Shown: in pieces, positions 1 through 26,978 of the stretch
Layout of the letters: the number at the start of each line of letters is the position of its first letter
How positions within the stretch are numbered: position 1 is the stretch's first letter
Assembly: GCA_003615045.1 (NCBI GenBank)
Contig: ML014332.1
Coordinates: 1-27,152 of the forward strand
Origin: Caulochytrium protostelioides
Lineage: Eukaryota > Chytridiomycota > Caulochytriomycetes > Caulochytriales > Caulochytriaceae
DNA: 27,152 nucleotides
Direction: 5' to 3'
Notes under the pieces: generated by a model
The model's database searches: none
What the model saw: only the letters and a program-made list of their open reading frames with translations
What the model was told of the DNA's origin: nothing
Position numbers and translations under genes: made by a program

Positions 1-2
1 TC

Positions 3-944
3 TACGTAGATGCATGGTCCCACGATCTGATGAAGGTTCCCCACCGGGTGGCCTACCGTGCCGTGATGATGGCTCTGGAAACGCTTCGTCTTAATCATTA
101 CCAGTGGTGTCCAATCAGTCAACGAGAAATAGCTTATTTTTTGCAGTATGCTTTCATGGATCTTGCGGAGGCGTACCAAACGTATGTGCCCGGCGTGGCA
201 CTGCCGGCCGATAACTTCATCATGGCGCAGCGCTACCTTCCATTAGCACAGGCGCGCTGTCCCATTGAAAAGCATGTTAATGTTCCTTTTTCTGAGAAAA
301 AGCTCGACACCCACGTGGAGTCGGCATTACGACCTCTCGGGGATATTCGCCGCCCAACCGAAAACGACTGGTTCGATACGCCCATCCTACCGGATCGCCG
401 TCTTGTCCTTGATTCGATGAAGCGAGTGATAGAAAGCCTCGGTGAAATCCAGTCGATTATAAGGAAAGCCAGATTGACTTACGACGAATACACAAGCATT
501 GTGGGTCCCCATGTTAAGTACTTCGCCACTGATGATTTAAACCGACTCGAAACGGACCTGTCAGAGTGTTTTTGGAAAATAAGGGAGCACACACCGAGAA
601 AAGAGGAACAATATGACGAGAACGCGCATGCTATCGAAGAATGGAACAGAATAAAACTCCGTTACAGACGTTCCATTGTGGAGGCGAATGCATGGAGCCG
701 GGAGGACATGAAGCGTCCTCCCCAAAAATCGCAGCCGCCCCTTCATAATCCTGATCCCTCTGAAGGGGCGGGCGCTCGTTCTAACTCTAGGCTTCGTCGT
801 GGCCCTGGCTCTGATTCTGGCGTTCATACTGGCATCCATACCAGTTTACCGTCTGGCCTTCATAATCAAGCCATCCTTCGTGCACCGTTCGACCCGGATT
901 ATCTTGCACCGAATCCCACTCCTGGAGATGTTCGAAATTCATGA
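3..944 (+). CDS. Unrecognised protein, 5'-truncated by window edge
   Basis: The frame is open from the first bases of the window, so the true start probably lies upstream; the first internal ATG is at 30. I recognise no family. The first 220 residues read as a helical, charged and aromatic-rich protein (for example AYRAVMMALETLRLNHYQW and IIRKARLTYDEYTSIVG). The last 80 residues turn into Pro/Ser/Arg/Gly-rich low complexity. Base composition is close to 50% GC, well below the conserved genes further right, which suggests a lineage-specific or foreign gene. The order of several weak motifs resembles the protein at 25356-26978 (MM-x-LET / IMM-DELS, then RKARLTYDEY / REAITMYNTY), so the two may be distant relatives. 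At about 740-960 the next frame encodes strongly hydrophobic sequence, so the real C-terminus may lie in another frame, reached by an intron or a frameshift. Confidence 0.55.
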   Translation, partial: YVDAWSHDLMKVPHRVAYRAVMMALETLRLNHYQWCPISQREIAYFLQYAFMDLAEAYQTYVPGVALPADNFIMAQRYLPLAQARCPIEKHVNVPFSEKKLDTHVESALRPLGDIRRPTENDWFDTPILPDRRLVLDSMKRVIESLGEIQSIIRKARLTYDEYTSIVGPHVKYFATDDLNRLETDLSECFWKIREHTPRKEEQYDENAHAIEEWNRIKLRYRRSIVEANAWSREDMKRPPQKSQPPLHNPDPSEGAGARSNSRLRRGPGSDSGVHTGIHTSLPSGLHNQAILRAPFDPDYLAPNPTPGDVRNS

Positions 945-1219
945 AATGATCGATTTGCGCTGTGACGGGAATCGCTGTCGTCATTGTTACCGTCATCGCC
1001 GTCGTAGGCCCCGCTTCCATCTCCGGAAAGACGAACTCTGAGCCCGTGCTCACTTGGTATGTTCGCACGCGGAGATTCTTATTGAGGACTCGGCCAGGCT
1101 CGAATTCCGCCGTGTCGGTTTTGGCCCGAGCAACTCGTCTCGTTTTCATACCTTATCCTGACGTGTTGAGTCGCAAGCAAATCTGCTCACCCGTTAGCGG
1201 TGCTGAAGTTAGGCGATGA
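712..1219 (+). pseudogene. Hydrophobic continuation of the upstream gene in shifted frames
   Basis: Where the preceding reading frame becomes low complexity, the +1 frame from 712 to 1041 reads a transmembrane-like segment (around 742-870, including GFVVALALILAFILASIPVY) and ends with the residues LRKDEL before TGA. The next +1 frame from 962 opens with a second hydrophobic stretch (GIAVVIVTVIAVVG) and runs to TGA at 1217. Two membrane-like segments in consecutive frames directly downstream of a gene suggest one coding sequence broken by two indels, or unannotated short introns. I found no GT-AG pair that joins the frames cleanly. T-rich codons in one frame can also look hydrophobic by chance, so this remains weak. 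Confidence 0.3.
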
Positions 1220-1389
1220 CCAGTGATCTCGAAATACGCGCGTTGATAAAAGGGAAGGCGAGAGATCCCGGTTGCTGCTTCCACCATTAACATCTCGGGT
1301 ACACAACATGCGCTCAGCGCTTCCGCACCGTTCTGGTTGACGAATTTCGCACGACGCAGGTGCATGCAGAGACGAATCTGGTCCTGAAG

Positions 1390-1422
<33 letters not shown>
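1390..1422 (+). repeat. Poly-A tract of 33 bases inside relic copy A
   Basis: This is an uninterrupted run of 33 A. Copy B has an interrupted A-tract at the same place (4197-4216). The A-run is therefore inside the repeat family, between two conserved blocks, and is not a 3' retroposon tail. It probably grew from a Lys-rich linker codon run. Confidence 0.9.
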
Positions 1423-1427
<5 letters not shown>

Positions 1428-1624
1428 CAAAACCGGCGCAAGGGGACCGTAGTCCGAAGCTTGCTATGGTGAGATGCCAGTTTGTAAACCGCGATCTCAG
1501 TGCCGCGTTGAACATCCAACGCTATCTAGCCTTACCCGTCAGACCGATAGCGTTGTGCTGCAACTACGAGCAAGCTCCTCTGCAGCTCATGATCGGCAAG
1601 CTCATCCATAAACTTAATGCGCCA

Positions 1625-1725
1625 CTGCCTGTGGGGAATCCCTGGGGAGCACCATGGATGGATGATTCGCTACTTTAGGAGGGGCCTATATTATGACCAT
1701 ACGTGACACGTGTGCTCGTTAAAAT
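1625..1725 (+). other. Conserved non-coding tail of relic copy A (candidate guide-RNA remnant)
   Basis: Downstream of the RuvC-III-like motif, copy A and copy B (4384-4480) keep the same blocks: GTGGGGAATCCCTGGGGAGC against GTGGGGGACCCCTGGGGCAC, then GATGAT, a GGGCCxATAT block and GCTCGTT. The G/C-rich block can fold on itself (GGGG with CCC(C)). In Fanzor and TnpB elements the guide RNA comes from the 3' end of the gene and the flanking element end, so a conserved untranslated tail here is the place to look. That role is inference; only the shared sequence is seen. Confidence 0.35.
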
Positions 1726-2035
1726 ATATTGGATTGGGAATGGGAAATGATGGGTAAACAGAGTGAAAATGAACGATGGAGGGAAGAGATGGGAGAAGAG
1801 TGAGACGAAGAAGGATGGGGCACAAGCCCAGCAAACCTAATTCGGTAGCATGGGGGTTACCGGCCTGCCGGCAATATATCCGCCCAGATGAGGAATGAGT
1901 GGGCAGCACAAATAGCACGCTGAGAGCTGCGTCAAGCAGACTGAGACGGTTAGTAGTATGAGGTATGAAGCAAATCGGTAGCGAGAAGGCCCGAATGGTG
2001 CAGGCAGAGCGGCAAATGGTGGACGGTGATGACGT
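1726..2035. other. Intergenic, no gene seen
   Basis: Purine-rich DNA (GGGAATGGGAAATGATGGG-like) lies between relic copy A and the 3' end of the LPMO-like gene. I see no supported coding region. It should contain the 3' untranslated region of the minus-strand gene. Confidence 0.5.
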
Positions 2036-2554
2036 CTACTTGACAAGGACATCGCTGCAGCTGACGTAGATCTCAGGGGCCGTCAGATCGGCGGCCCAGT
2101 ACCAGCGGATGACCGCGGGGCCCTTGTAGCTGTCGGGGATGTTGCCCTGGATGGTGTGAGTACCCAGCTCGGCCTGGAAGGGCTCGGTAATGTTGGCGAA
2201 AGATTCCTCGTCCCTGGAGATCGAGAAGTAAGCCTCGCCCTTGTGGCCGGCCGTCACTGTGTATTCGAGGCCGATCGAGCCGGCGTTCACTTCGGTCACC
2301 GGCACGCTCGAGCCTTCTTTGGTGACGCCGCCGCAGATGAAGGGATCGGTACCCGACATCATGGTGCGCGAGACCTGGCCATTGATCGGGTAGTTGCCCT
2401 CAACAGGGTCCGTGGCATCCTTGCGGTAGCGCGTGGGCGGGTTCGTCATGCGGCCGTGTGCGGCCACAAAGCTGGGCATGATGGCCAACACGACGAGCAG
2501 GGCGACCGAAAGAGTCCCGGTCAGGGCCGAAGTGGAGGGGCGGAACGAAACCAT
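2036..2554 (-). CDS. Secreted LPMO-like protein (chitin-binding type-4 fold)
   Basis: This 172-residue protein has a signal peptide (hydrophobic residues 15-30, cleavage after VAA at 32) that leaves histidine 33 as the mature N-terminus in HGRMTNPPTRY. That is the hallmark of copper-dependent lytic polysaccharide monooxygenases, which oxidatively cleave chitin or cellulose outside the cell; the first His would be half of the histidine brace. His104 in TAGHKGEAYFSISRD is the likely second ligand. Cys74 and Cys166 could form a disulfide, and the end WYWAADLTAPEIYVSCSDV matches the C-terminal strand typical of the fold. I cannot decide the AA family. The frame is open upstream to 2650, but the start at 2554 is chosen because it puts the signal peptide at the N-terminus; the extra upstream codons mostly translate a 9-bp repeat. 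The stop is TAG. No carbohydrate-binding module follows. Confidence 0.8.
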   Translation of the reverse strand: MVSFRPSTSALTGTLSVALLVVLAIMPSFVAAHGRMTNPPTRYRKDATDPVEGNYPINGQVSRTMMSGTDPFICGGVTKEGSSVPVTEVNAGSIGLEYTVTAGHKGEAYFSISRDEESFANITEPFQAELGTHTIQGNIPDSYKGPAVIRWYWAADLTAPEIYVSCSDVLVK

Positions 2555-2560
2555 GGTGCG

Positions 2561-2590
2561 AGTGTGTCGAGTGTGTCGAGTGTGTCGAGT
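2561..2590 (-). repeat. 9-bp tandem repeat (AGTGTGTCG x3) in the 5' leader
   Basis: Three perfect AGTGTGTCG units plus AGT lie directly upstream of the start codon of the LPMO-like gene, within its expected 5' untranslated leader. Confidence 0.9.
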
Positions 2591-2775
2591 AGGAGGTGAA
2601 TGAAAGATCAAGCTGTCGGAGTGGAGAATGTTGAAGAGACTGCGAAACAAGGCCGTCTGTGGTGGATGATGTGTGAATGAACAGATGAGACGGAACGCAT
2701 CTTAGGTATCTGTACATGCAATAAGAACACATGGCACGAACTGAAGAATGGCGACCGTGTGCCCACATGCCCTCC

Positions 2776-2783
2776 TATTTATA
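2776..2783 (-). promoter_or_regulatory. TATA box of the LPMO-like gene
   Basis: On the minus strand the sequence reads GGGGTATAAATAGGAGG, a perfect TATAAATA core in a GC-rich setting. It lies about 220 bp upstream of the start codon, which would give a leader of roughly 190 bases. Confidence 0.6.
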
Positions 2784-2789
2784 CCCCGC

Positions 2790-3830
2790 CGAGATGCAAC
2801 GCTGAGCAAGCCAGGGTGCAGTTCCTGAGCACTCAGCTCACGTATAGCTTCATGTAGCAAGGCCGTGCTCAGGGCACACATCATCTGGCTCAGACGCTGG
2901 CATTCACGATGCGACACGGAAGCAGGCCGTTCGGAGCGCCGCGAAAGGTCACCGACGCTAGTCCAGATCTTGGGACTTTCCGGGGTGAACGGCAGTGTCA
3001 CACCTCCGACTTTCCTTGAACCTCCTGTCGTTTGGCATTCAGACGAATCAAGTGGGCGAATCAATGAAAGTGGGGAAGAGCCCGAGATTTTCCGCTTGCT
3101 TGATCGGAATCTCATGTCTCTTGGCCGACGGCAGGGCAAGCATAAGCAAGCAAGAGCGCGGATCCTTCCATTCTTTCATTGCTATCGCCATCAAGGCTAA
3201 TGATGTCTCCCAGCCCCCGGGGCAGAAGGGGGCCTCCATCGCGCCCTTAAATTGCGTCGAGCCCATCGTTTATCCGCCCCTTCTACTTGCTTTCAAGTTG
3301 GGTCCCCGTACTCCGGCCGAAGGGCACTCTTGCGATTTCACCGCCAGCGCTCACCACTAACCCATCGGGATCACAGCCCCGTAAGCTCAGCAGCCTGTGA
3401 GCCCTGCCCATCGCATGTCATCTGAAAGCGAGAGACGGCCATAGTCCACCGCTCATTTCAAAGACCCGATATGTTCCACGCCCCGCTAAATTCCTAGAGA
3501 GCCCTGTGAGTGACTCCCTTTTTTTCTTTTCTTTTCTTTTCCTTTCTTTTCTTCTACGTGCGTGGCATCCACCAATGTGGCGCTGCAGACCATCACCGCC
3601 TCCTCGCAGGCTCGCCCGTTTCACTCAGGACACCTGAAGAGATGCCCGGTACGCTTGCTCGCCGCGTGCTCGCCTCACTCTCGGCTTTCTCGAGGCGAAG
3701 CCAGACTCCAAGACTGATAGCAACTTCTTGATTTGATGTCATGACATGCCCGTTTCTATGACCTCGGCCCCAACTCGTCAGTTTTCTATGCTTGTATAAG
3801 GAAGAAGCAAAAAATCACTGAAAATACAAA
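2790..3830. other. Gene-poor stretch, no supported gene
   Basis: Open frames here are short, overlap on both strands and show no recognisable motif. The only clear structure is a pyrimidine tract at 3514-3555. The interval lies between the LPMO-like promoter and relic copy B. Confidence 0.5.
3514..3555 (+). repeat. Polypyrimidine tract (TTTTC)n
   Basis: About 42 bases are almost purely T and C, with a TTTTC period in the centre. No gene is tied to it. Confidence 0.85.
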
Positions 3831-4196
3831 ATGCGGTATCGGGGGCGGCCGCTTTGGCGTTCCGCAAGCTGGAAGACAGAACTACGAACTCACACCGAGG
3901 ACAGAGACAGCGTCAGCATGTGCACCTCCGGCGTGTCAGACGACGTGCCTGCCATATCTGGCGATCGCCTCCAAGACTAAGCACCCATCTGGTAGGCAGG
4001 CTCTCGTACCAGGGCCTCCGCCTATATTGCATCCCAGTAAACCCTCGAGGGAGCAAAGGGGATCAGACCACTCTCATGTCTCGGGCATCCAAGGTATGCC
4101 TGCGATACCGCGACCAACATGCGCTCAGCGCTTCCGCACCGTTCTGGTCGGCGCGTTCCGCACGACACAGGTGCATGTAGAGACAACTATAGTCCC

Positions 4197-4216
4197 AAAA
4201 AAAAAAAAAAGAAAAA
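4197..4216 (+). repeat. Interrupted A-tract inside relic copy B
   Basis: Fourteen A, one G and five A occupy the position equivalent to the 33-base A-run of copy A. Confidence 0.85.
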
Positions 4217-4383
4217 CAAGCGAGCGCAAGGATATTTTGATGAGAGGTTTTCTGTGATGTGATGCCGCCAACGGCAAGTTTGTGAACCGCGATCACAATG
4301 ACTTGTGGGACATCCGACGCTGCCTTACCCGACAGACCGATAGCGTTGTGCCGCAGCCCTGGACTAGACCGAATGTGTGACTG

Positions 4384-4480
4384 CCTCGGTGGGGGACCCC
4401 TGGGGCACCACGGAGGGGATGATGCACAGCGTGAGGTAAGAAAGGGCCCATATACACGAGCATGCTCGTTGAACAAAAAA
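4384..4480 (+). other. Conserved non-coding tail of relic copy B
   Basis: This is the counterpart of 1625-1725. It contains GGTGGGGGACCCCTGGGGCA, where GGTG and a downstream CACC flank a GGGGACCCC self-complementary core. Similarity to copy A ends near the shared GCTCGTT. Confidence 0.35.
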
Positions 4481-4591
4481 TATGACCATAACCTGTCCGC
4501 ATCGTCCGGAGCGGTTGCAAGAAGGCCGCCATCCATATCGATCGACCGTTTGTGTTCCCTTGGGGTCGGTGCCCGCGACCCATGACACGTG

Positions 4592-4606
4592 CCCCCCCCC
4601 CCCCCC
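4592..4606 (+). repeat. Poly-C run of 15
   Basis: Fifteen consecutive C lie between CACGTG and TTGTGTGG. Such homopolymers are prone to length errors in sequencing. Confidence 0.85.
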
Positions 4607-4814
4607 TTGTGTGGATAACGTCGATCAGGAAACACGGGCCCGTCTCCGCATGCCCGCTGTCACTGATCGCCCTCGAGCGAGTCCTAGTCAGGCCAGACCT
4701 TTAAAGCAACTTCTCATCTCACAGACGATGCGAGGGCCGCGGACGTAGCGTGGCTCGTGAAATCGACCCTAACATTAGGCCATGAGGGGGGCGCATTTTT
4801 TCAATATATCGTTA

Positions 4815-4827
4815 CCCTAAACCCTAA
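4815..4827 (+). repeat. Interstitial telomere-like motif (CCCTAAACCCTAA)
   Basis: Two CCCTAA units are separated by one extra A, the pattern of TTTAGGG-type telomere repeats or of the telo-box. It is too short to be a telomere. It could mark an old chromosome-end junction or be chance. Confidence 0.5.
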
Positions 4828-5032
4828 GGTGATGCTTAACAGCGCGGAGCGACCGCCAGAGAACGCCGTATGAGCATCCGAGGTAGCCGTCTCGGGTAGT
4901 TTGGGGCTTGGGAGTCATTGCTGGCCCCCCTTACCCTCAAGACCCGCACTGCGCTTCTTTGACCGGCACCTGTCTATGCCGTTGTAGTTTGGTGAGTCAT
5001 ATATCGGGACTTTCTCCTATAGCATGAATCTT

Positions 5033-5056
5033 CATATATATATAAATATATATATC
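5033..5056. repeat. AT dinucleotide microsatellite
   Basis: A 24-base stretch of almost pure alternating A and T (ATATATATATAAATATATAT). Confidence 0.85.
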
Positions 5057-5257
5057 TGCCGAATGGCGACATGGGCGTGCTCTGTCCAGACTGGTGGGAT
5101 CAGAAGATCCATTGACGTAAAACCCATCGCATAAAACCCCATCACTTCGCATTTCATTCTGGCCTTCAGTGTGCCGCCTTCGACTTCACTCGCATCGCTC
5201 GGAAAGGTTGAAAGGAGTGAAGCGATGCACGGTCCTTATGCGCTAGCTCTTTATAAG

Positions 5258-5319
5258 GCCAGACCGGTCTCTGCATGCAGCTGGGTGTTCCGGAACACGT
5301 CAACCAGGGCGGTGCGGTA
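5258..5319 (-). repeat. Inverted piece of the Fanzor-like C-terminal region
   Basis: Read on the minus strand, these 62 bases match the DEFRTT region of copy A at roughly 80% by eye (shared blocks CCGCACCG, CTGGTTGACG and TGCATGCAGAGAC) and translate to YRTALVDVFRNTQLHAETG. The piece sits head-to-head with the plus-strand body of copy C, which begins within about 30 bases. Copy C is thus rearranged: its C-terminal segment has been inverted and moved in front of its middle region. Confidence 0.6.
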
Positions 5320-5346
5320 ATGCCGAAGGAACTCGAGGTGGTGGCC

Positions 5347-6090
5347 TGCAACGAGAAGACCTTCGAGACCATGACCGCAGAGCTGTGGGCGGCCACCCCG
5401 GCGTTTCGCAAGCTGAAAGGCAGGGACCACAAGTTCCTTGGCAGCATTGGCAGCGATGGCATCAGCACCTTCGTCCTCTTCGAGCGTCAGAGGAAGGTGT
5501 CCGACATCATGCCGACCATCACGGCGAACGAGAACCCCTTGGGAGGCAGCCCCAACCAGATGAACAACCTCTTGGGATACAGCGTGGATCAGATCTAGAA
5601 ACTCTTGGCAGACAGCCTCGATAAGTTCTGCACCATCGGGAACGACCCGAGCCGCATCAACATCTTCATGGCCATGGTGGGGCTCCAAGGCCCGGTCGTC
5701 AGCTGGAAGCTGAGCTGAAAGCAGTACTATGTGGAAGCCGGCATGAAAGCCGCCCAAAAGCAGTCAGAGATGTGGCAGCGCCATTTGAAAGAGCCGCTGT
5801 AGCGGCCATCAGAGGTGAGCATCAACGGCACAGCGCTCGCCGCGCACCACCGCTTCCTGGAGGTGTGGCTCGCCACGTAGGAACCGTTGTGGGCCGAATA
5901 CTTGAAGCCGATAGGAGTGCCAGCGTTCGGTTAAGGTGGACCTGTACTCTCATTAAAAAGAACGGTGGTATGGACACCGGCGATGATCCTCGTCTTCGAT
6001 GCCCTACCATGCGGGGCCGGGCGATCTTCCGCATGCGTACGACCCTTCCGTTGTGTATTATGGTAAAAGCTGATTTGGGGGCCATCGCTT
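5347..6090 (+). pseudogene. Fanzor/TnpB-like relic, copy C (middle and RuvC-I region)
   Basis: One plus-strand frame stays protein-like from 5347 to 5934 despite five stops: TAG 5596, TGA 5716, TAG 5800, TAG 5878 and TAA 5932. Signatures in order are FRKLKGRDHKFLGSIGSDGI (the Fanzor pattern F...F...I-[ST]DG[VI]S), then GNDPSRINIFMAMVG at 5638-5682 with the RuvC-I Asp codon at 5644, then a tryptophan/tyrosine-rich helical region (KQYYVEAGMKAAQKQSEMWQ; PLWAEYLKPIG). After 5934 the frame shifts and the sequence fades near 6090. Each stop is one C-to-T change from CAG, CGA or CAA, so methyl-cytosine decay is possible. Other genes here end in TAG, TGA and TAA, so recoding is unlikely. Family assignment rests on motif recognition. 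Confidence 0.62.
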
Positions 6091-6534
6091 AATTGGGCGA
6101 GCCGCCGGGAAGGGAGGGATGGAGTGACGCATGGGTGGACAGGCAACGGGGGGCGCGGGCCACTTTCACTTTTGCGCTAGGCGGCGCTCGGCGGGTCAGG
6201 TGAGGGCCGGACGGCCAGCGAGCCCGACTGGCCCGACCTGCCTCACTCACGGACCCATCCATCCATCCATCCATCCAGTCGGCGGCTCGACTATCCTGCC
6301 TGCTCCTCATCCTCGAGTAAGGCCATGCGCGGTGTATACTTGATTGACCGTGGTAAGACTAGCTAATCAGTCATATGCCGTGTGCTAGCCCTACGACAGC
6401 CTCGTGCAAAGCTGGATGGCTCGCGCGTTGGAAGGTATACCTGTCGTGGTGCTAACAGTGTGGACGCCAGAGCCCTGCTTGCCCCAGACGACCTCTTCCT
6501 TCCCCGGAACCCACCCGTTGATTTTATCGCCGCC
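6091..6534. promoter_or_regulatory. Upstream region of RPL24
   Basis: This interval has no supported gene. It lies between the end of relic copy C and the proposed first exon of RPL24, so it should hold that gene's promoter. I see no convincing TATA box. A CCAT microsatellite lies at 6254-6277. Confidence 0.35.
6254..6277. repeat. (CCAT)n microsatellite
   Basis: Five to six perfect tetranucleotide units (CCATCCATCCATCCATCC). Confidence 0.85.
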
Positions 6535-8152
6535 ATGAAGTACGTTACGACTCTTCACCGCCCACGCGGACCTATCTGCCGTATACTGCCGTATATCTGC
6601 CCACGCGTTGCTGCAGACGCTGTGGCCTGAATGAGACGGTCTGACAGCGAGAAACATGGTCTCGCTGCAGCTCATGAAGATCGCAGGCCAAACCGCTGCC
6701 CCACCAGAGCGCGACACAGCCATGAAAGAGAGATCGAGAGCGCTCATGAATCTACGAAGCCGATTAGCGCGTCCACCCACGGCCCTTCGTCAGCATTGGA
6801 GCCGAACGCCTTTATCTCCCGCCGTAGACGAGCCATAACGCGTCCATCAGGCAGCTTATCGCGGAATGAACCGCGCGCGGCTCCGGCGGGTCATGGAGAC
6901 GAGCATCCGACAGTGTCGTTTCTCCCAACAGCGCTCCCATCGTTGCCCCGCACCGTCGTTACCGTTGTAGTGTTCGGCGCGCTTGACTCGTGAATGCCAG
7001 CTCTGCTCCCCCGCGACCGCGATGTCATCGGACGCTGTTGCGTGGCGCGATGGTTGTCGCCGTCAAAATGGTCCACAGCGGCAGGATGCGTATCGGCTGG
7101 CATTCGACGCGGTGTCGCCACGTGCGACGGAGAGCCGCCGGCTTGGTTCATTTCCGCCACATGTCGGTCTGCCGCGTCTGTAGATCGCTCTACCTCCGGC
7201 GCGAATACGGTTCCCGTCGCGCTGTCGGATCGTCTCTCGTCAGCACGCCATTCGGTCTGCTTATCGAAGCAAGTTCTCCGCCGCGGCGCTGGTTCGGCCC
7301 AAGTGTGCCGTGCGACGCGCATGCGATGACCTCCGTGGCCCGACTCTTGGTGTCGTTAAGCGGCTCATGGCCCTGCACGCGCCGTCCTTCCCGAGATAGG
7401 TCGGAATTGGTCGGACGATCATCTCGACTATCCGCCTATCTTGTTTGAGATGGCAACGCACGCAACCGCGTGTAGTGACCCATGGCCCCTTTCTCGGCTC
7501 CTTTAGGCTGTCGACGGTCCCTTGATGCATGCCGTCTCCAACGACCTCCGCACTTCTAGCGCTCGCGCGAGATATGATCGGGTTCAGATCCCGTCGTCCA
7601 TATGATAGCTTGCTTGCTGATATTGACTCACCCTGACTATTCTGTTGTTCTTTTCTTTTGTTCTTTAGGCTCGACACCTGCTCCTTCTCGGGGTTCAAGA
7701 TCTACCCCGGCCACGGGAGCATGTACATCCGTGGTGACAGCCGCTCGTTCCGCTTCGCCAACTCCAAGGCCCACCGCTACTTCCTGCAGCGCCTGAAGCC
7801 GTCCAAGCTCGACTGGACCACCGTCTTCCGTCGCATCAACAAGAAGGGCGCCCAGGAGGCCACTCGCAAGAGCAAGTCGCGCAAGGTCACCAAGGCTCCG
7901 CGTGCTGTTGCTGGCGCCACCCTTGAAGACATCCAGGCCAAGCGCGCCGCCGCCCCCGAGCTCCGTGCCCTCGCCGCCGCCAAGAAGGCTTCCGACAAGA
8001 AGTCCGCGGCCGACAAGGACGCCAAGAAGGTCGCCAAGAAGGCCGCCAAGAAGGCCGCCAAGGTCGCCGGCATTGCCAACAAGGCCGCCCCCAAGGTGTC
8101 CAAGCAGCAGGCCAAGGGCGCGCAGGTCAAGGTCCAGGCCAACACCCGCTAA
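6535..8152 (+). CDS. RPL24: 60S ribosomal protein L24 (eL24), two exons
   Basis: Proposed coding sequence is join(6535-6539, 7669-8152), 162 residues. Exon 2 is unmistakable eL24: SFSGFKIYPGHGSMYIRGDS (the treble-clef N-terminal domain), then RFANSKAHRYFLQRLKPSKL, DWTTVFRRINKKG, a basic stretch, GATLEDIQAKR, and a Lys/Ala-rich tail ending SKQQAKGAQVKVQANTR. It sits in the large ribosomal subunit. Exon 2 begins after TTCTTTTGTTCTTTAG with one base of a split codon. Exon 1 is inferred: GCCGCCATGAA followed by GTACGT at 6540 is the only upstream start I found that supplies ATG-AA plus the base G. The result MKLDTCSFSG lines up without gaps with the conserved animal/fungal start MKVE(L/I)xSFSG. 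The implied intron is 1,129 bp. Exon 2 is very secure; the 5-base exon 1 needs transcript evidence. Confidence 0.88.
6540..7668 (+). other. Proposed 1.13-kb intron of RPL24
   Basis: The donor is GTACGT. The acceptor tract is TTCTTTTCTTTTGTTCTTTAG, with CTGAC/TTGAC branch-point-like sites about 35-45 bases upstream. The intron body is GC-rich with short overlapping open frames and no recognisable protein. I saw no convincing snoRNA or tRNA inside it. Confidence 0.6.
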
Positions 8153-8812
8153 GTGCGGTCAAGGCACGCCTGCCGGGTTCTTCTTTCTTTCTCTAGGGCG
8201 GGGCCGCTCATCGCCGCGCCGTTGTTGTCTGCTCGATCACGCGGTCGACGCGTGTCATGACCTGTTGATGCCTCCTCCCCCTTCCTGCCTGTTCGGCTGC
8301 TTCGTGCCAGCTTCGCCGCCGTCGGGCTCGCGACGAGAGGACCCGTCTTTGTTTCGGGTTCGCCGAGTCTTCGCGGACGGAAGGGCGGCGGTTGGCGTCC
8401 GGACGCTGGACCGACAGCGAGCGAGAACGCATCTCCTGTTATAATTAAGATCTTCTATTGGTGTTTGAGCACGTCGGCAGGTCTCGATCTGCGGCCACGT
8501 GTCTATGAAGATAGATTAAAAGCATTAAAAGCATTAAAAGCATTTGCTTTGACACAATGACGCAATGGCGGACCTCCTCGAAGGGAGTCGGCGTTCGATG
8601 ACTTGTCTCCACTGTCAATATCGATTAAAGACAACCACCGTTACTATTGATCTGACGGTCCGTCGTGTATGACAGATTAAGATAACATAAAGAGAGACCC
8701 GTGAAGAGACATAAAGTTTCAGAAAGTTTCAGAAGCACAGCAAGGACATCAAGCGCGAGAATGTGCCCAGACGGGAATCTCCATAACAACGAGGTCTTCG
8801 CGACTGGCGCAT
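8153..8812. other. 3' flanks of two converging genes
   Basis: RPL24 ends at 8152 and the minus-strand phosphoesterase ends at 8813, so the 660 bases hold both 3' untranslated regions. Composition shifts from GC-rich to AT-rich after about 8440. A 9-bp tandem repeat lies at 8515-8541. No gene is seen. Confidence 0.6.
8515..8541. repeat. 9-bp tandem repeat (ATTAAAAGC x3)
   Basis: Three perfect ATTAAAAGC units followed by ATTTGC lie in the AT-rich 3' region between RPL24 and the phosphoesterase. Confidence 0.9.
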
Positions 8813-10816
8813 TTAGTTTGTCAAGTCAGCGACGCCGACGGTGTAGCGCATGATGGTCCAGACTTTGCGCAGGGCGGCCTCGATAATGCCCAACTTCAGA
8901 CCGCTGATGCGGTTGCCGTCATCCATGAAGGGCAAGGGCTCGGGCAGGGTCGTGGGACAGTCGGTGCGGGGCTCGGAGCGTTCGAGGAAGATGCCCTCAA
9001 AGGTGGCGGCCCACGCATCGCGCCGGGTCAGGAACCGGTCCCAGCCAAACATCTTCTTGAACGTGGCGGCCAGGGAGCAGTGTTCGAAGTGGCTCGTGGG
9101 AGACGGCTTGTCGTCCGGCTCGGGCTCGCTGACGACGCGGCCTTTGTTGATCCACGGGCTGATCATGATGGTTGGAACACGGAGGCCAAGTCGGTCGAAC
9201 GCGAAGTCCGTTCGGCTCGACGAGTAGACGTCCGGCGGAGGCACCCCCTTCGCGGGCGGGGGCACGTGGTCCCAGAACCCGCCGTGCTCGTCGAAGGTGA
9301 TAATCAGCAGGGTGGTGTTCCACTGAGGCCCGTTGCGCACCGCCTCGTAGACCTCCTTGACCAGAGCCTCCGCGCGAGCCGTATCCGACGGCGGGTGAGC
9401 GTCGTTCTCCACATAGGCACCCACCATGTTGACGAAGGTCGGGTCAATCATCGTGAATTCCGGGAGCTCGCCATTGGCCGCGTGCTTGGCGAAATCTTCG
9501 TACGGCGCCGTATTTTCGCGGATGTTGCGGGCGGAGCGCTGGTCCTTGAAGAAAAGCGACAGGGGTGCCATCGTATGGTAGTTGATCCAGGACACGTTTT
9601 GCTGGGTCAGGCGGGTGAAGATTGAGTCCTGCGGGTAGCCGCGGAATATGCGCGAGTTGAAGTTGGACAAGTCGCCCCGCGACGTGCACGAGTAGATGAA
9701 GAGACGGTTCGGGTACGTCGGACCAGGGACGCTCGCATACCAGTTCTGAAACACGGCAAACTCGTTGGCCAAGGTCCACGTCACGGGGAGCATCGTCTTG
9801 GTGTCCATGCCGTCCATGATATCCCGCAAATCCGTCATCTGCGAGGAGCGCCAGTGCAGCTGCGCAGCCTTCACGAACCCTGACATGTTGGGCGGATCGT
9901 CGGGCTCCGGGAACATTTTGCCATAGATGCCGAGCCGGGCCATGTTCGCCTCGTGCGGGGGGTCGCGGATGCCCATTTGCACCGCCTCCGTCGTGCGGTT
10001 GACCAGGATGGGGGTCCGCTTCGGCATGTCGACGTCTGTCACGCCAGGGATGTAGCGATCGGTTTGAACCTGCTTCGAGAGCACGTCGAGGTCTTCGGTC
10101 TGATAGACATCCCATGTGGGGTTGGCGTACGTATCGTTCTCGTGGACCCCGTTGATATCGGGCCGCTCGTCGGCCATCGCACCAAGGTAGTGGTCAAAGG
10201 AGCGGTTCTCCAACACAATCAGCACGACGTTCTTGATCGGCCACGAGTCTGGCTTGGTCCGGTCGAACTGATACGGTGGCGGCTTTTGTCGGACGTACGT
10301 CGTATTGCGAGTACCCTGGTAGGGCGGGACCGTGCTCGCGCCACCGGCGGTCTCCAAGGGCGGGTGTTCCTCCACGTCGGCTGGCGGCTTGCCTTCCTGC
10401 GCCGTTTCCGACTGCGTGCTCGTGCCTCCAGCGGCCGCGGCTGACGCCGGGTGCGATACCGGCATCGAAGCAGATTCCGACGACGACGACGACGCCGGCG
10501 AGGTGGCCGGCTCGGCCGTCGCCTCCACGCCGTCACGCGCTAGGGCTTGGCGGACGGCTTTCTGGAGATGGGGTGGCAGGAGGCGATCCAGCGGATCGTT
10601 GCCGCTGACGACGCGCGGGTCGTCGTCAGGCAGGTCGCGTGGCAGAACGGTGCGGAAGGCCGGCCGGCGGGGCGGGGCGGCATCAGGGCCGGCGCCGCGG
10701 GCCTCGAGCCGGGGGTCGGCATCCACGACCGTGCCGAGGCTCAGGCTCAGACCGAGCGCGAGCGCCGCGAGCAGCGTGAGCGCCCGCATCGCCGCGGCGG
10801 CAGGTCGGCGCGACAT
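8813..10816 (-). CDS. Secreted phosphoesterase, phospholipase C / NPC family
   Basis: This 667-residue protein begins with a signal peptide (MRALTLLAALALGLSLSLG from an in-frame ATG at 10789, or nine residues earlier at 10816). A Pro/Ser/Ala-rich linker runs to about residue 180. The phosphoesterase domain (Pfam PF04185) follows: VLENRSFDHYLG with Glu203, Asn204 and His209; FAVFQNWYASVPGPTYPNR; FTMIDPTFVN; ITFDEHGGFWDHVPPP with Asp509, Glu510 and His511; VPTIMISPWI; and SHFEHCSLAATFKKMFG. The tail PRTDCPTTLPEP is what plant-type non-specific phospholipases C carry. The family hydrolyses the phosphodiester of phospholipids to give diacylglycerol; some members are acid phosphatases, and the sequence alone does not separate these. 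Several Asn-X-Ser/Thr sites fit secretion. No intron is needed. The gene is complete and its motifs are intact. Confidence 0.9.
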   Translation of the reverse strand: MSRRPAAAAMRALTLLAALALGLSLSLGTVVDADPRLEARGAGPDAAPPRRPAFRTVLPRDLPDDDPRVVSGNDPLDRLLPPHLQKAVRQALARDGVEATAEPATSPASSSSSESASMPVSHPASAAAAGGTSTQSETAQEGKPPADVEEHPPLETAGGASTVPPYQGTRNTTYVRQKPPPYQFDRTKPDSWPIKNVVLIVLENRSFDHYLGAMADERPDINGVHENDTYANPTWDVYQTEDLDVLSKQVQTDRYIPGVTDVDMPKRTPILVNRTTEAVQMGIRDPPHEANMARLGIYGKMFPEPDDPPNMSGFVKAAQLHWRSSQMTDLRDIMDGMDTKTMLPVTWTLANEFAVFQNWYASVPGPTYPNRLFIYSCTSRGDLSNFNSRIFRGYPQDSIFTRLTQQNVSWINYHTMAPLSLFFKDQRSARNIRENTAPYEDFAKHAANGELPEFTMIDPTFVNMVGAYVENDAHPPSDTARAEALVKEVYEAVRNGPQWNTTLLIITFDEHGGFWDHVPPPAKGVPPPDVYSSSRTDFAFDRLGLRVPTIMISPWINKGRVVSEPEPDDKPSPTSHFEHCSLAATFKKMFGWDRFLTRRDAWAATFEGIFLERSEPRTDCPTTLPEPLPFMDDGNRISGLKLGIIEAALRKVWTIMRYTVGVADLTN

Positions 10817-14425: not shown

Positions 14426-16258
14426 TTATGCTTCTTCGGAGGGCGGTAGGCTCGCGCTGAGACGGCCGCCGTCGTCGCTGTCGTCGGGCTCGCCGTCGTT
14501 CGACGCGCCGTCGTCCTCGCTGCCGGCCGGCGACGCCGCCTCGTCGCCGTCGAGGCCGTCGTCATCGTTGTCTTCCTGATCCTTCTCGCTGCCGCTGTCG
14601 TCGTCGTCGTCGTCGTCATCGCTGATCACAGGCCAGACCATGTGCAGATCGATACGCGGCTGGCAGGGCTGCGTCACATACTTGACAAAGCTCGAGACGC
14701 CCGCGTCCTTCACGACCATCGTCAGGCTCCCGCTGACCGGCGAGATCGTCGCTAGCGGCTCGTCGGCGTCCTCGGCGAGCCAAAACATCGTCCCGGGCAC
14801 GCCGGCGTCGTCGTCGTCGTCGTCGTTACTGACGTCGCCACCCTGTTCGGGATTCACCTGCTTGACGGGCAGGTTGGCCGTGTTCGACTGAAGGCAGAGT
14901 ATGACCTCCAGTCCCTGGGCGTCCGGGTAGTGGTCGTGGACGAGCTCATAGTCGCCTGGACGGAAGACACGGACCTCATGAATGACGGGCAGCGGGCCCA
15001 GCGTCAGCCCCGAGAGGTCCGACAGCCAGCCGCGGAAGCACGGCGTCGTCGACAGGGCCTGCAGCTGTTCGAGCCGCGTGAGCGACGCATGCAGCGGCTT
15101 CGTGAGCGGCGGCATCCGCAGGTATCGCCCTTTGCTGATCGGCAGCGGCGCCGGCACGAGCGCCGCCAGCGTGGCGGCATCGAGCCACGGCGCTGGCGGC
15201 GTGGCCGAGTCGTTCTCTTCGGTGACGCCGTTGACAACGTCATGCAGGGTGATCGTGCCTTCCTGGTGGAAGTGCTGCACGATCTGCTGGGTGCTGGGAT
15301 GAGCGGCGCCCCCGCGGTAGGCGGGGTTGAACCAGTCGGCGAGCCACTGGGCGTGCCGCTCGCGGTGGCGGTCCCGCGGCGCGGCGTCCTGGGAGTAGAA
15401 CCACCCCGAAATGGAGACGCGCGACAGCGCGCGCGCAGCGCCCCCCGCCGCGGCGGCCGCGGCCGGCGGCACGAGGACCTCGGCGACCTCGTGATAGCTC
15501 GTGTTGCCCACCTCGAAGAACGCGAGCAAGCCGCGCCGCGGCTGGATGCGTTTGGGCGCGCGTGGCGTCGGCTGCCCCGCGGCGTCGGCCTCGTACATCG
15601 TGAGCGCGCCGCCGTGCGCGGCGCTCCAGTCGGCGTCGACGAGGTAGAGGATAAACGCGATGCGGCGGCGCTGCGCGGCATTCTCGACAATGTCGTCGTC
15701 GTGGCACAGCAGATGCCCGCCGGGCGGGTAGCGGTGGCCGCTGAGATCCATCTGCGCCGTGAGCGTGATGCCCGTCAGGTCCTGAATCAGCTGCAGGAAC
15801 GCCGGCGAGTACAGCCGGTCGCAGATCTCACGGATAGCGGGATCCGTGGCGGTCTGCAGATGCGGCGTCTGGAAGAAGTGGTAGAGGTCGTTCAGTTTGA
15901 GCTCCTGCGCGAGCGCCACGACGGCGGCCTGCGCCGCGGCCAGCAGCGGCTCGCCGAACAGGCCCGTGAGCTCCACGTGGTTGAAGCAGACGCCGTCGAC
16001 GGTCACGCGGCCGTCGGGTGAAACGTACGACCGCGGCTCGCCAGCGGCCCACGCCTCCGCGGGCGCCGCCGCCGCCGCGCTCGTCTGGAAAAAGGCCTTA
16101 GCGGCGCGGCGAACGGCGGGCGTGATCGGCGCTAGCCATGCATCCGCGCCCGTCTCGGCGTCCGCCTGCGGCTTGGCCTCGGTCTTGACGCGCTTCGCGG
16201 CCGGCCCGGCCGCCGTGGCCGTCACGGCGTCACGGTCGTCCATCGCAGTCTTGGCCAT
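14426..16258 (-). CDS. TPA1: Tpa1/OGFOD1-type prolyl hydroxylase (2-oxoglutarate/iron dioxygenase)
   Basis: This 610-residue protein starts at an ATG in good context (GTGGCCATGGCC); the frame is open further to a GTG at 16396. The catalytic double-stranded beta-helix carries GHLLCHDDDIVEN (His186-x-Asp188), RRRIAFILYLVDADWSAAHG, LAFFEVGNTSYHEVAEVL (His256, third iron ligand) and RVSISGWFYS (Arg280, 2-oxoglutarate). The second, non-catalytic half follows: FRGWLSDLSGLTLGP and RVFRPGDYELVHDHYPDA. This two-domain layout is that of yeast Tpa1, fission yeast Ofd1 and human OGFOD1. They hydroxylate a proline of ribosomal protein Rps23 and affect termination and hypoxic signalling. The C-terminal 80 residues are an Asp/Glu/Ser-rich disordered tail, and an Asp run also sits in the second domain. 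All iron and cofactor ligands are intact. It converges on MIX23, with 123 bases between the stops. Confidence 0.92.
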   Translation of the reverse strand: MAKTAMDDRDAVTATAAGPAAKRVKTEAKPQADAETGADAWLAPITPAVRRAAKAFFQTSAAAAAPAEAWAAGEPRSYVSPDGRVTVDGVCFNHVELTGLFGEPLLAAAQAAVVALAQELKLNDLYHFFQTPHLQTATDPAIREICDRLYSPAFLQLIQDLTGITLTAQMDLSGHRYPPGGHLLCHDDDIVENAAQRRRIAFILYLVDADWSAAHGGALTMYEADAAGQPTPRAPKRIQPRRGLLAFFEVGNTSYHEVAEVLVPPAAAAAAGGAARALSRVSISGWFYSQDAAPRDRHRERHAQWLADWFNPAYRGGAAHPSTQQIVQHFHQEGTITLHDVVNGVTEENDSATPPAPWLDAATLAALVPAPLPISKGRYLRMPPLTKPLHASLTRLEQLQALSTTPCFRGWLSDLSGLTLGPLPVIHEVRVFRPGDYELVHDHYPDAQGLEVILCLQSNTANLPVKQVNPEQGGDVSNDDDDDDAGVPGTMFWLAEDADEPLATISPVSGSLTMVVKDAGVSSFVKYVTQPCQPRIDLHMVWPVISDDDDDDDDSGSEKDQEDNDDDGLDGDEAASPAGSEDDGASNDGEPDDSDDGGRLSASLPPSEEA

Positions 16259-16812
16259 GGCCACGACGATGAAATGGAGGGCGGCGTTTGGAGCGGCGTT
16301 TGGAGCGGAGCTAGAGCGGAGTTTGGCGAGCGGGTCTTCGCGGATCGCCGGGATGGCGTTGGCTGGGGTCGACGCGCGGCGGGTGTGGCCGTGCACGTGG
16401 TCACCGTGTGATGAGCTTGCGGATACCGGGCGTGCGTGCGTACGCTGCGAGCGCGCGAGGACGACGGCCCTGCCGGGGATCGGGCGAACGCATTGGCAGG
16501 CGAAAAATGGGCGCTGCGCAACCTGCTCGCGAAAGGTCGGTCGCAGTCTCGCGTCCCCTCATCATCGGGCTTTGTTCTTTATCACCCTTTTCGGGGTCTC
16601 CTGTGGCGGGCCGCGTCCCGCCCAACCATTTGGCGCCATCACGACCACCGCGAACGCGATGCGGCCCTGCGATGCCACCCTCTTGTGAACATCAGATATC
16701 ATGAAAAAAAAATGCATGTTGAAAAGCGAGAAGTGAGAGAATGAGTAGGAGCAGCCATAGCCATGCGTCAGCAGGCGTCGCGTCGCGCCACTGAGAGTGG
16801 ATCCTGGTTCGA
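16259..16812. other. Intergenic between dioxygenase start and kinase end
   Basis: Both flanking genes read to the left, so this stretch holds the promoter of the dioxygenase and the 3' end of the histidine kinase. A short A-run lies near 16700. I see no gene. Confidence 0.55.
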
Positions 16813-25355: not shown

Positions 25356-26978
25356 TCAGCGCGATGGCGATCGGGATCGAGAGCGAAGGGTTAGAGCCGG
25401 GGATCCCTCCGACGGGAGGCGAGGTTCTTGGCCCTTCCGAGAACCCCGGCTGCTCACACGTTGATGACGCGAGAGGGTCGACGCAGGACTGGATGAGGGT
25501 GGAGGCGATGGCGAACGTCGCTTGTGTGAAAAGCTGAAGAGACGACGGCCGCCTTGCGACGCGCGTTCCTCCCGCCGCCGCTGCTTCTCTTCGGCCCGAC
25601 GCTGGGACGCCACGGCCCTTTCTTGCCGGAACGCAGCCCACTGTCGCCGGCGTTTTTCGTACGTCGTCTCCGGACGGTGCGAATCGGTGTCCGGCGGATG
25701 CGGCCGAGCGTTCCCGAATGACGACGAAAATCGACTCGACCACCGGCTTCGCCACGTCGAGGGATCAGCAGACTCTCCGGGATCATTTTGAGAATCCGTT
25801 GACTCACGGTCAGACTCAGGTTCCCGCTGGTTCGCATCGGCCTCGGCAAACCTCACCGTTCGATGCGGCCGCGCGGACGACGTTTCATCGACGGACTCAC
25901 GGTCATCGGACTCACGGTCCTCCTGAGAGTGTGGCGTGCGATCTTGAGAGCCCGGCCTACGGTCTACCTGAGGGCTTGGCGTACCTGCCTGCGAAGGGCT
26001 TCGCTCAGCGTCGACTGACGATGTCTCCGATTTCACGGGGATCACCTCCGAGTCTTCCTCAAGAGTCTGGGGAGTACCGACTTGGAGCGTCCTGTACGTG
26101 TTGTACATAGTGATCGCTTCTCGAACAAACTTTTGCCGCGCAGTTTCCACGCTGGCCCTCAGGACTTCAAGCTCATCATCAAATTCGGAACCGACGGCAA
26201 ACGTTGTGTCCTTTGCGAATCGTGCTTCATTGAACAGATTCCAGAGATTGAGATTCCATTCTTCGGTCAGCGACATATCCATACTCTTCGGTCGTGGCTC
26301 CTCTAAGCGCCCTTGGGCCCGTAAGCGGTCGCGCTCTTTAAAGAGGTCATGCAGCTGAAAGGGCGTCGGGAGCTCGCGGCTTTTCGCGAAACGCTGCAGT
26401 TGCCATGTAGCATACTGCTGAACACGGAGATAGTCAACGTGACGACCATTCATCATGAACGCGCCCACGATGTCTTCCAAGATCAGCTGCCATAGGGTGG
26501 CCACATCGGCCCCCGTGTACGGGAGCTTGCCAACGCGAGCCGGCTTCACGACCGTAGCAGGGGAATCGTTCGCATCACCGTCGTCATCGGGAGAAGCGGC
26601 TGGACCCTTTCCCGTGCTAAACACGGCTTCCTGGTCGCGGTATGTCGAGAGTTCGTCCATCATGATTCGATGAATCATACGGATGTAATTGCGGACCGTG
26701 GCATCCGTTTCGAGCGTTATATATCGAGTGGTGGGCTCCAGAAACTCCAACGGCGTCGGCGACACCAAGCGCTGCTCCGCTACGGCGTTCGTAGCGGGAA
26801 CGACCAGGCGGGTCTCGTTCCCCCACTGCTTCAACATTTTGCTGTCGAGGATGAGACTAATATCAAAATCCTCCGGCGAGTCGAGGGTCTCATAGTGCTT
26901 TGGATTTCGCCTCCAAAACCCGGCTGTGGCGACGACCGCCAGGCTCGCCACGAGCCAGGCCACGAACCATACCCGCAT
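25356..26978 (-). CDS. Unrecognised secreted or membrane-anchored protein
   Basis: This 540-residue protein starts with a clear signal peptide or signal anchor (MRVWFVAWLVASLAVVATAG) from an ATG with no upstream alternative in frame nearby. Residues 25-300 form a predicted helical, charged and aromatic domain (for example RNYIRMIHRIMMDELSTYRD, TLWQLILEDIVGAFMMNGRH, EEWNLNLWNLFNEARF, REAITMYNTYRTLQVG). Residues 310-540 are disordered, rich in Ser, Arg, Glu and Pro, and end in an SR-rich tail (RSRSRSPSR). I recognise no family. The helical domain shows the same order of weak motifs as the protein at 3-944. A secretory N-terminus joined to a long SR-rich tail is unusual; the tail would face the lumen or outside if the protein is secreted. 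GC content is lower than in the conserved core genes. Confidence 0.7.
   Translation of the reverse strand: MRVWFVAWLVASLAVVATAGFWRRNPKHYETLDSPEDFDISLILDSKMLKQWGNETRLVVPATNAVAEQRLVSPTPLEFLEPTTRYITLETDATVRNYIRMIHRIMMDELSTYRDQEAVFSTGKGPAASPDDDGDANDSPATVVKPARVGKLPYTGADVATLWQLILEDIVGAFMMNGRHVDYLRVQQYATWQLQRFAKSRELPTPFQLHDLFKERDRLRAQGRLEEPRPKSMDMSLTEEWNLNLWNLFNEARFAKDTTFAVGSEFDDELEVLRASVETARQKFVREAITMYNTYRTLQVGTPQTLEEDSEVIPVKSETSSVDAERSPSQAGTPSPQVDRRPGSQDRTPHSQEDRESDDRESVDETSSARPHRTVRFAEADANQREPESDRESTDSQNDPGESADPSTWRSRWSSRFSSSFGNARPHPPDTDSHRPETTYEKRRRQWAAFRQERAVASQRRAEEKQRRREERASQGGRRLFSFSHKRRSPSPPPSSSPASTLSRHQRVSSRGSRKGQEPRLPSEGSPALTLRSRSRSPSR

Follow-up and report, generated by a model that had tools for sequence, protein, structure and literature searches.

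Decayed copies of a probable Fanzor1-type nuclease gene family in the chytrid Caulochytrium protostelioides

What are the repeated segments in the first 6 kb of contig ML014332.1 of Caulochytrium protostelioides, and do they belong to a gene that is still alive? The window analyzed here is the whole stretch of 27,152 nucleotides (GenBank assembly GCA_003615045.1, positions 1 to 27,152 of the forward strand; contig C222 in our numbering), and the genome searched comprised 20.9 Mb in 337 contigs. An initial annotation, made from the sequence alone, had read three of the segments as a local cluster of decayed copies of Fanzor, the eukaryotic TnpB-like nuclease. With a probability of about 0.93, we conclude that a single Fanzor1-type gene for an RNA-guided nuclease multiplied in the ancestors of C. 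protostelioides and then decayed, and that the segments are dead copies of it, truncated at the 5' side. The window copies are not expected to be functional now.

The homology of the window segments is far above chance. Blastn against 69 further loci from this genome gave best E-values of 1e-45 for segment A, 1e-39 for B, and 7e-137 for C (all referring to a small database), and the matches extended over 1290-1393 and 1424-1724 (A), 3841-3923 and 4109-4483 (B), and 5265-5925 (C). A profile of the family 3' end moves the end of A to 1734 and that of B to 4489. The segments also repeat one another, with shared stretches of A and B being 85%, 70%, 79%, and 94% identical and with 3843-3879 of B recurring as a direct repeat at 5387-5423 of C (81% identity). 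The initial annotation was thus right that A, B, and C share sequence and that B combines a C-like with an A-like part, and its argument tying these parts to one element stands. The single extent that it gave, 1245-6090, was too broad, as the homology actually covers about 1290-1734, 3841-3923, 4109-4489, and 5265-5925, and to its three segments, all real, a fourth and inverted one must be added.

Relic A (1290-1734, forward strand) corresponds to the C-terminal end of the protein (about residues 521-549 and 573-617 of the related full-length metagenomic protein P0001) followed by about 120 nt of the family 3' end, as judged from tblastn with P0001, blastn against other copies, the 3'-end profile (1477-1734, E 2.6e-54), and hhalign. 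It is 5'-truncated and changes frame at an A-tract (about 1388-1423). The RuvC-II glutamate motif DEFRTT lies at 1339-1356 (forward) and aligns with DEYKTS of SpuFz1; by our count along the fused chain, its glutamate corresponds to SpuFz1 E541. The RuvC-III aspartate motif NRDLSAALNI follows at 1487-1516 (forward) in a different frame. Relic B consists of two forward pieces. The upstream one (3841-3923) carries the 'WAATLAFRKLEG' stretch that precedes RuvC-I and matches 12 other loci (best blastn E 4e-7), and the downstream one (4109-4489), recognized by tblastn, blastn, and the 3'-end profile, again holds the C-terminal end and the 3' end. Its RuvC-II motif reads VGAFRTT, with DE replaced, and NRD is retained.

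Relic C (5326-5925, forward) represents the middle of the protein, about residues 284-460 of the relative P0004 (tblastn E 1.4e-38), and was also found in searches of its own genome. One TGA and three TAG codons interrupt the frame within 5587-5892. Its RuvC-I aspartate motif, GNDPSRINIF (5638-5667, forward), has DPS in place of DPG; the commonest form in the family is GNDPGRTNIF. With the frames re-read by hand, all three motifs lie where the initial annotation had put them, and of the catalytic residues C retains the first aspartate, A retains the glutamate and the last aspartate, and B is without the glutamate. Adjoining relic C is the small inverted piece (about 5254-5340, reverse strand), an A-type RuvC-II region (VDVFRNTQLHAET) that forms an inverted repeat with 1314-1381 of A. 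It aligns by tblastn with P0001 over 29 residues at 41% identity (E 0.016) and with a family copy at E 6.8e-4, and blastn depth reaches 24 at 5275-5305. Outside the window, one open frame of 526 residues (L061, contig C37) unites the C-type and A-type parts.

Several results weigh against the assignment to Fanzor. The profile check that the initial annotation had proposed comes out empty if read literally, in that eight stop-free window pieces have no Fanzor/TnpB Pfam match at E <= 10. A PF07282 search of the whole genome gave no match, 5 of the 12 family copies matched this model below its cut-off (best 0.0022), and a PDB profile search using decayed copies alone found nothing. The C4 zinc finger between RuvC-II and RuvC-III is also missing from most of the relatives, as described below. 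Such weak or empty direct searches are what one would expect if the motifs were a chance likeness or belonged to another RuvC-type family, a reading that we consider very improbable, being contradicted by the profile, PF07282, fold, and hhalign evidence obtained through full-length relatives. Decay together with the lost zinc finger would explain the Pfam silence of the window pieces and the genome. Pfam and PDB searches made directly with pieces of the window or with decayed copies were uninformative; the identity rests on the full-length relatives.

A profile of 12 family copies (A1) retrieved 68 proteins, the best at E 7.1e-74; many are about 570-632 residues long, and the source organisms include Caulochytrium itself, Tetrabaena (P0017), and Chlamydomonas eustigma (P0049). 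A second profile, built from 44 relatives (A2), matched in the PDB the Fanzor1 of Parasitella (9cf0, E 1.8e-20), SpuFz1 (8gkh, 4e-13), and the Guillardia Fanzor1 (9cer, 1.8e-4), with the next chain at only 0.022; phmmer of P0043 alone against the PDB gave no match. The same profile aligns by hhalign with window positions 1388-1675 in relic A (E 9.3e-12) and 5275-5595 in relic C (4.9e-10). The AF2 model of P0001 has a mean pLDDT of 90.9, and its top seven PDB matches are all Fanzor structures (SpuFz, PpFz, and GtFz; E 3.5e-21 to 9.7e-15, TM 0.54-0.71, with SpuFz at 0.66-0.71), followed by Cas12f. Two of ten relatives scanned, P0040 (27.1 bits) and P0043 (26.6), pass the PF07282 cut-off of 26.3 bits; the best of eight relatives with the NCBIfam model guided_TnpB, at 2.3e-5, is far under its cut-off.

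All 44 relatives have the catalytic residues D, E, and D, and in the sampled genome copies they are found in 28/32, 30/38, and 34/44, respectively. Those of SpuFz1 are D383, E541, and D606 (PMC10432273), which by our reading of the HMMER alignment probably correspond to the three motifs described here. The published fingerprint of Fanzor1 is DPG at RuvC-I together with an alternative glutamate (Yoon 2023, PMC10711439). Among the relatives the P is present in 40/44 and the G in 44/44, and among the genome copies in 28/32 and 27/34; the alternative RuvC-II glutamate is found as the E of VDEFRTT, aligned with SpuFz1 DEYKTS by A2. Six residues separate this glutamate from the expected place of the first CxxC, to which the spacing was measured because the finger itself is gone. 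A second glutamate (GELSVPT, P0001 residue 512) is likewise present in 44/44 relatives, besides the RuvC-II glutamate at residue 535. In a FastTree phylogeny of 96 sequences, the 34 genome copies were monophyletic (support 0.919). By tblastn, no relative was encoded in 600 pattern stretches from viral contigs or in 581 from bacterial and archaeal genomes. From these comparisons we assign A, B, C, and the inverted piece to one putative Fanzor1-type family of C. protostelioides; the Fanzor identity proposed in the initial annotation holds by way of the full-length relatives and finds no Pfam counterpart in the window pieces taken alone.

The Fanzor/TnpB motif as published includes a C4 zinc finger (Bao and Jurka 2013, PMC3627910), which according to a later paper is present in 'many' TnpBs and Fanzors (PMC10711439). 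Among 54 relatives, both CxxC pairs are present in two (P0061 and P0062), the second pair alone in one, and neither in 51; the count omits 14 of the 68 proteins, whose flanking motifs were unrecognizable, and the ratio describes this branch only, since the 68 came from a query without the finger. Judged by the 2013 motif the branch fails, but its homology, its fold, and the DPG/glutamate fingerprint place it in the Fanzor1 lineage. In the tree of 96 sequences, P0062 stands as the root, P0061 comes next, and the remainder follow, which is consistent with a single loss in the branch, although the rooting on P0062 is an assumption. Although the 2013 motif includes the finger, a whole branch with otherwise invariant catalytic residues seems able to do without it. 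We found no earlier description of a Fanzor1 branch without zinc finger and no paper combining Fanzor with Caulochytrium in a literature search that was not exhaustive.

The place formerly held by the finger is variable in sequence. In many Caulochytrium copies (L032 at 2108-2749, L044, L037, L047, and others), a long insertion rich in R, P, A, and S, with repeat-like units, sits between the RuvC-II and RuvC-III motifs (A1 columns ~203-300); P0001 and copy L028 are without it, and in relic A this place is taken by the A-tract at 1388-1423. For L032, a tandem-repeat finder did not report a coding repeat within this enlarged loop.

The initial annotation's 'local family' understates the extent of the family, the matches being scattered across many contigs. 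Two protein half-queries gave at least 163 (132/409 candidates scored) and at least 188 (150/872) genome matches, and full-length P0001 gave at least 96 (71/1218); these lower bounds count matches rather than distinct copies. None of the matches listed from these scored candidates was both full-length in alignment and open in frame; the search for full-length members proposed in that annotation yielded many matches and no full-length, open copy among those listed. The longest joined frame fetched was the 526-residue frame on C37, which is without the N-terminal part, and stops and frame changes run through the genome matches. Many sampled copies also have internal gaps.

Divergence at the three codon positions was nearly equal, at 0.235/0.214/0.259 (528 pairs) and 0.262/0.202/0.287 (672 pairs), after exclusion of L042, which occupies the L008 site, and of pairs that shared under 50 codons or differed at more than 35% of sites. 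The decay of the copies is near-neutral. Given this near-equal divergence and the lack of a full-length open copy among the matches listed, the suggestion that intact copies probably exist in the genome, or did until recently, is unsupported; there is a small chance of one among unscored candidates or in missing or masked stretches. Median identity to the nearest sampled copy was 0.88 and 0.84, in a set biased by choice for similarity to the window segments, and on the divergence of the copies we reject a recent local burst. The few near-identical pairs (the C151 pair, 97% in protein, and L058/L059) are perhaps segmental or assembly duplicates. Several relics occur at extreme contig ends (C252:19-300, C245:1-315, C317:4-357, C332:2-283, and C301:1-306), perhaps because the assembly broke at repeats or because these relics are subtelomeric. 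In one annotated hypothetical protein of 554 residues (P0007, CXG81DRAFT_23488; C6:206638-207338), the first 140 residues or so are those of a decayed Fanzor copy and an unrelated stretch comes after them; this is either a gene-model artefact or a captured fragment.

In this family the 3' end is fixed, and the copies are truncated from the 5' side. About 100-130 nt past the stop codon, homology stops within A-rich sequence, and in 55 copies that have the 3' end, with borders taken from blastn depth and matches above 97% ignored, the homologous length ranges from 244 to 2126 nt with no large steps. A first look with DNA queries gave 23 candidates for the 5' leader (all scored), 70 for the N-terminal coding part, 231 for RuvC-I, 462 for the 3' part, and 442 for the 3' end (40 scored for each of these four), from queries that differ in length (561, 530, 851, 446, and 341 bases, respectively); part of this gradient could come from the leader, being non-coding, having decayed faster.

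Spread would have begun at the 3' end, and for its mechanism we rate two explanations as equal, each a tentative candidate short of an even chance. Fanzor transcripts may have been reverse-transcribed and inserted by machinery of the long interspersed nuclear element (LINE) type, that is, by target-primed reverse transcription. The common A-rich 3' end fits such RNA-borne copying, as do the continuous 5' truncation, the candidate gradient from 23 to 462, and the RVT_1 domains in the genome, of whatever element type (19 matches among 20 candidates, 15 above the cut-off). A plain mRNA copy would not be expected to carry TATATAAA, which is common to three 5' leaders (L032, L047, and L051/L068, the last two being one locus) about 200 nt upstream of the ATG, and the tails are not clean poly(A). 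Target-site duplications at 44 copies were at chance level (mean 5.91 versus 5.65, standard deviation 0.17, maximum 6.08, 20 permutations), in a test weakened by the age of the copies and their fuzzy 5' borders; this tells against LINE-type insertion and also counts against our overall account of multiplied copies.

The other explanation of equal standing is a Helitron2-like, one-ended rolling-circle transposition that starts at the 3' end, as proposed for the Fanzor1 elements CRe-1/2/3 of Chlamydomonas. The copy pattern reported there, frequent 5' truncation and nearly always intact 3' ends (PMC3627910), matches ours, and green-algal proteins (P0017 and P0049) are among the relatives. A hairpin near the 3' terminus reached z <= -2 in 9 of 40 windows (18 of 58 sequences, having no anchor, were left out), which would suit rolling-circle transposition, but the mean z is only -0.61 and the stem sequences differ. 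Helitron_like_N (PF14214) has no match in the genome, a search in which the control genomes were equally silent, and neither a partner element nor a 5' terminus was identified. We regard as unlikely a cut-and-paste DNA transposon with inverted ends, resembling SPu-1, that later lost its 5' parts by deletion. The Fanzor1 of Spizellomyces resides in such elements, and the internal gaps of many sampled copies would accord with deletion; random deletion, however, should affect both ends, and here the 3' part persists while the 5' part is lost, by about 20-fold in the first-look candidates. No shared inverted ends were noticed, in work that included no dedicated search and with a 5' end too poorly mapped to exclude them.

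As other Fanzors do, the living element would have cut DNA with a guide RNA, and part of that guide (omega) RNA may survive as a stem in the 3' untranslated region, which we treat as a lead and not a result. RNAalifold on 38 3' ends gave no consensus structure (0 pairs), which weighs against this part of our account. A hand-drawn stem of seven pairs, drawn from the very sequences used to test it, had 83.1% paired cells versus 79.2 after shuffling (0/500 shuffles reach it) and a covariation of 0.195 versus 0.141 (0/500), with 0.188 when slid by +2. Pairs changed on both sides showed no excess (3 versus 2.7, 290/500); one pair is broken in 17/36 sequences, and another change is common to one subfamily. 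A second stem in the 3' end was not supported, Rfam gave no match in window positions 1-8500, and a tRNA scan of the whole window found nothing.

A broader scenario is conceivable but rather unlikely. A distinct Fanzor1 branch of fungal, green-algal, and metagenomic members would have lost the zinc finger once and remained intact elsewhere, and copying from the 3' end in Caulochytrium would have taken the guide-RNA region along almost every time. If so, hundreds of truncated loci would have gone on containing potential guide sequences. We found 3'-biased spread described only for the Chlamydomonas Fanzor1 elements (PMC3627910), and with a fungal case it becomes possible to test how Fanzor elements are mobilized.

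Neighboring genes in the window were recognized by Pfam. An LPMO_10 gene (2039-2572, reverse) lies between relics A and B, and downstream are genes for ribosomal protein L24e (7658-8149, forward), a phosphoesterase (8816-10816, reverse), and an Ofd1-type 2OG-Fe(II) oxygenase (14429-16396, reverse). Long open frames at 30-941 (forward) and 25359-26978 (reverse) have no Pfam match at E <= 0.01. The short telomere-like run CCCTAAACCCTAA is found inside the contig at 4815-4827, between relics B and C.

Among known systems, SpuFz1 of Spizellomyces punctatus (SPu-1; PDB 8gkh, 9ceu-9cez) shares with the Caulochytrium family the RuvC core, the aligned D/E/D residues, the fold, a chytrid host, and the occurrence of many partial copies. 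It retains the zinc finger that the Caulochytrium branch has lost, and SPu-1 has inverted ends of 30-33 nt, of which we noticed no equivalent. SPu-1 is full-length at 19 of 42 loci, and nine intact frames were counted in Spizellomyces in 2013 (PMC3627910), whereas the copies here are 5'-truncated and none was found intact. The CRe-1/2/3 elements of Chlamydomonas reinhardtii, which are borne by Helitron2 (Bao and Jurka 2013), resemble ours in 5' truncation, 3' over-abundance, and internal deletions, a likeness of copy pattern. Their 3' bias was explained by one-ended rolling-circle transposition (PMC3627910). According to the same source, CRe-1 copies are young (about 98% identical to the consensus), many CRe copies have flanking duplications of 7-19 bp, and the elements share ends with Helitrons; the Caulochytrium copies are old, with no detectable duplications and no Helitron found in the PF14214 search.

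The Fanzor1 of Parasitella parasitica, PpFz1 (PDB 9cf0), is the best profile match. Its host is likewise a mycoparasite (PMC11423790), as is C. protostelioides (PMC6784888). PpFz1 has the FRI insertion (PMC11423790) and, in the A2 alignment, retains cysteine pairs at the zinc-finger place, unlike the Caulochytrium branch. As fossils the Caulochytrium relics are ordinary; they are unusual in their lost zinc finger, their scale, and their 3'-biased spread.

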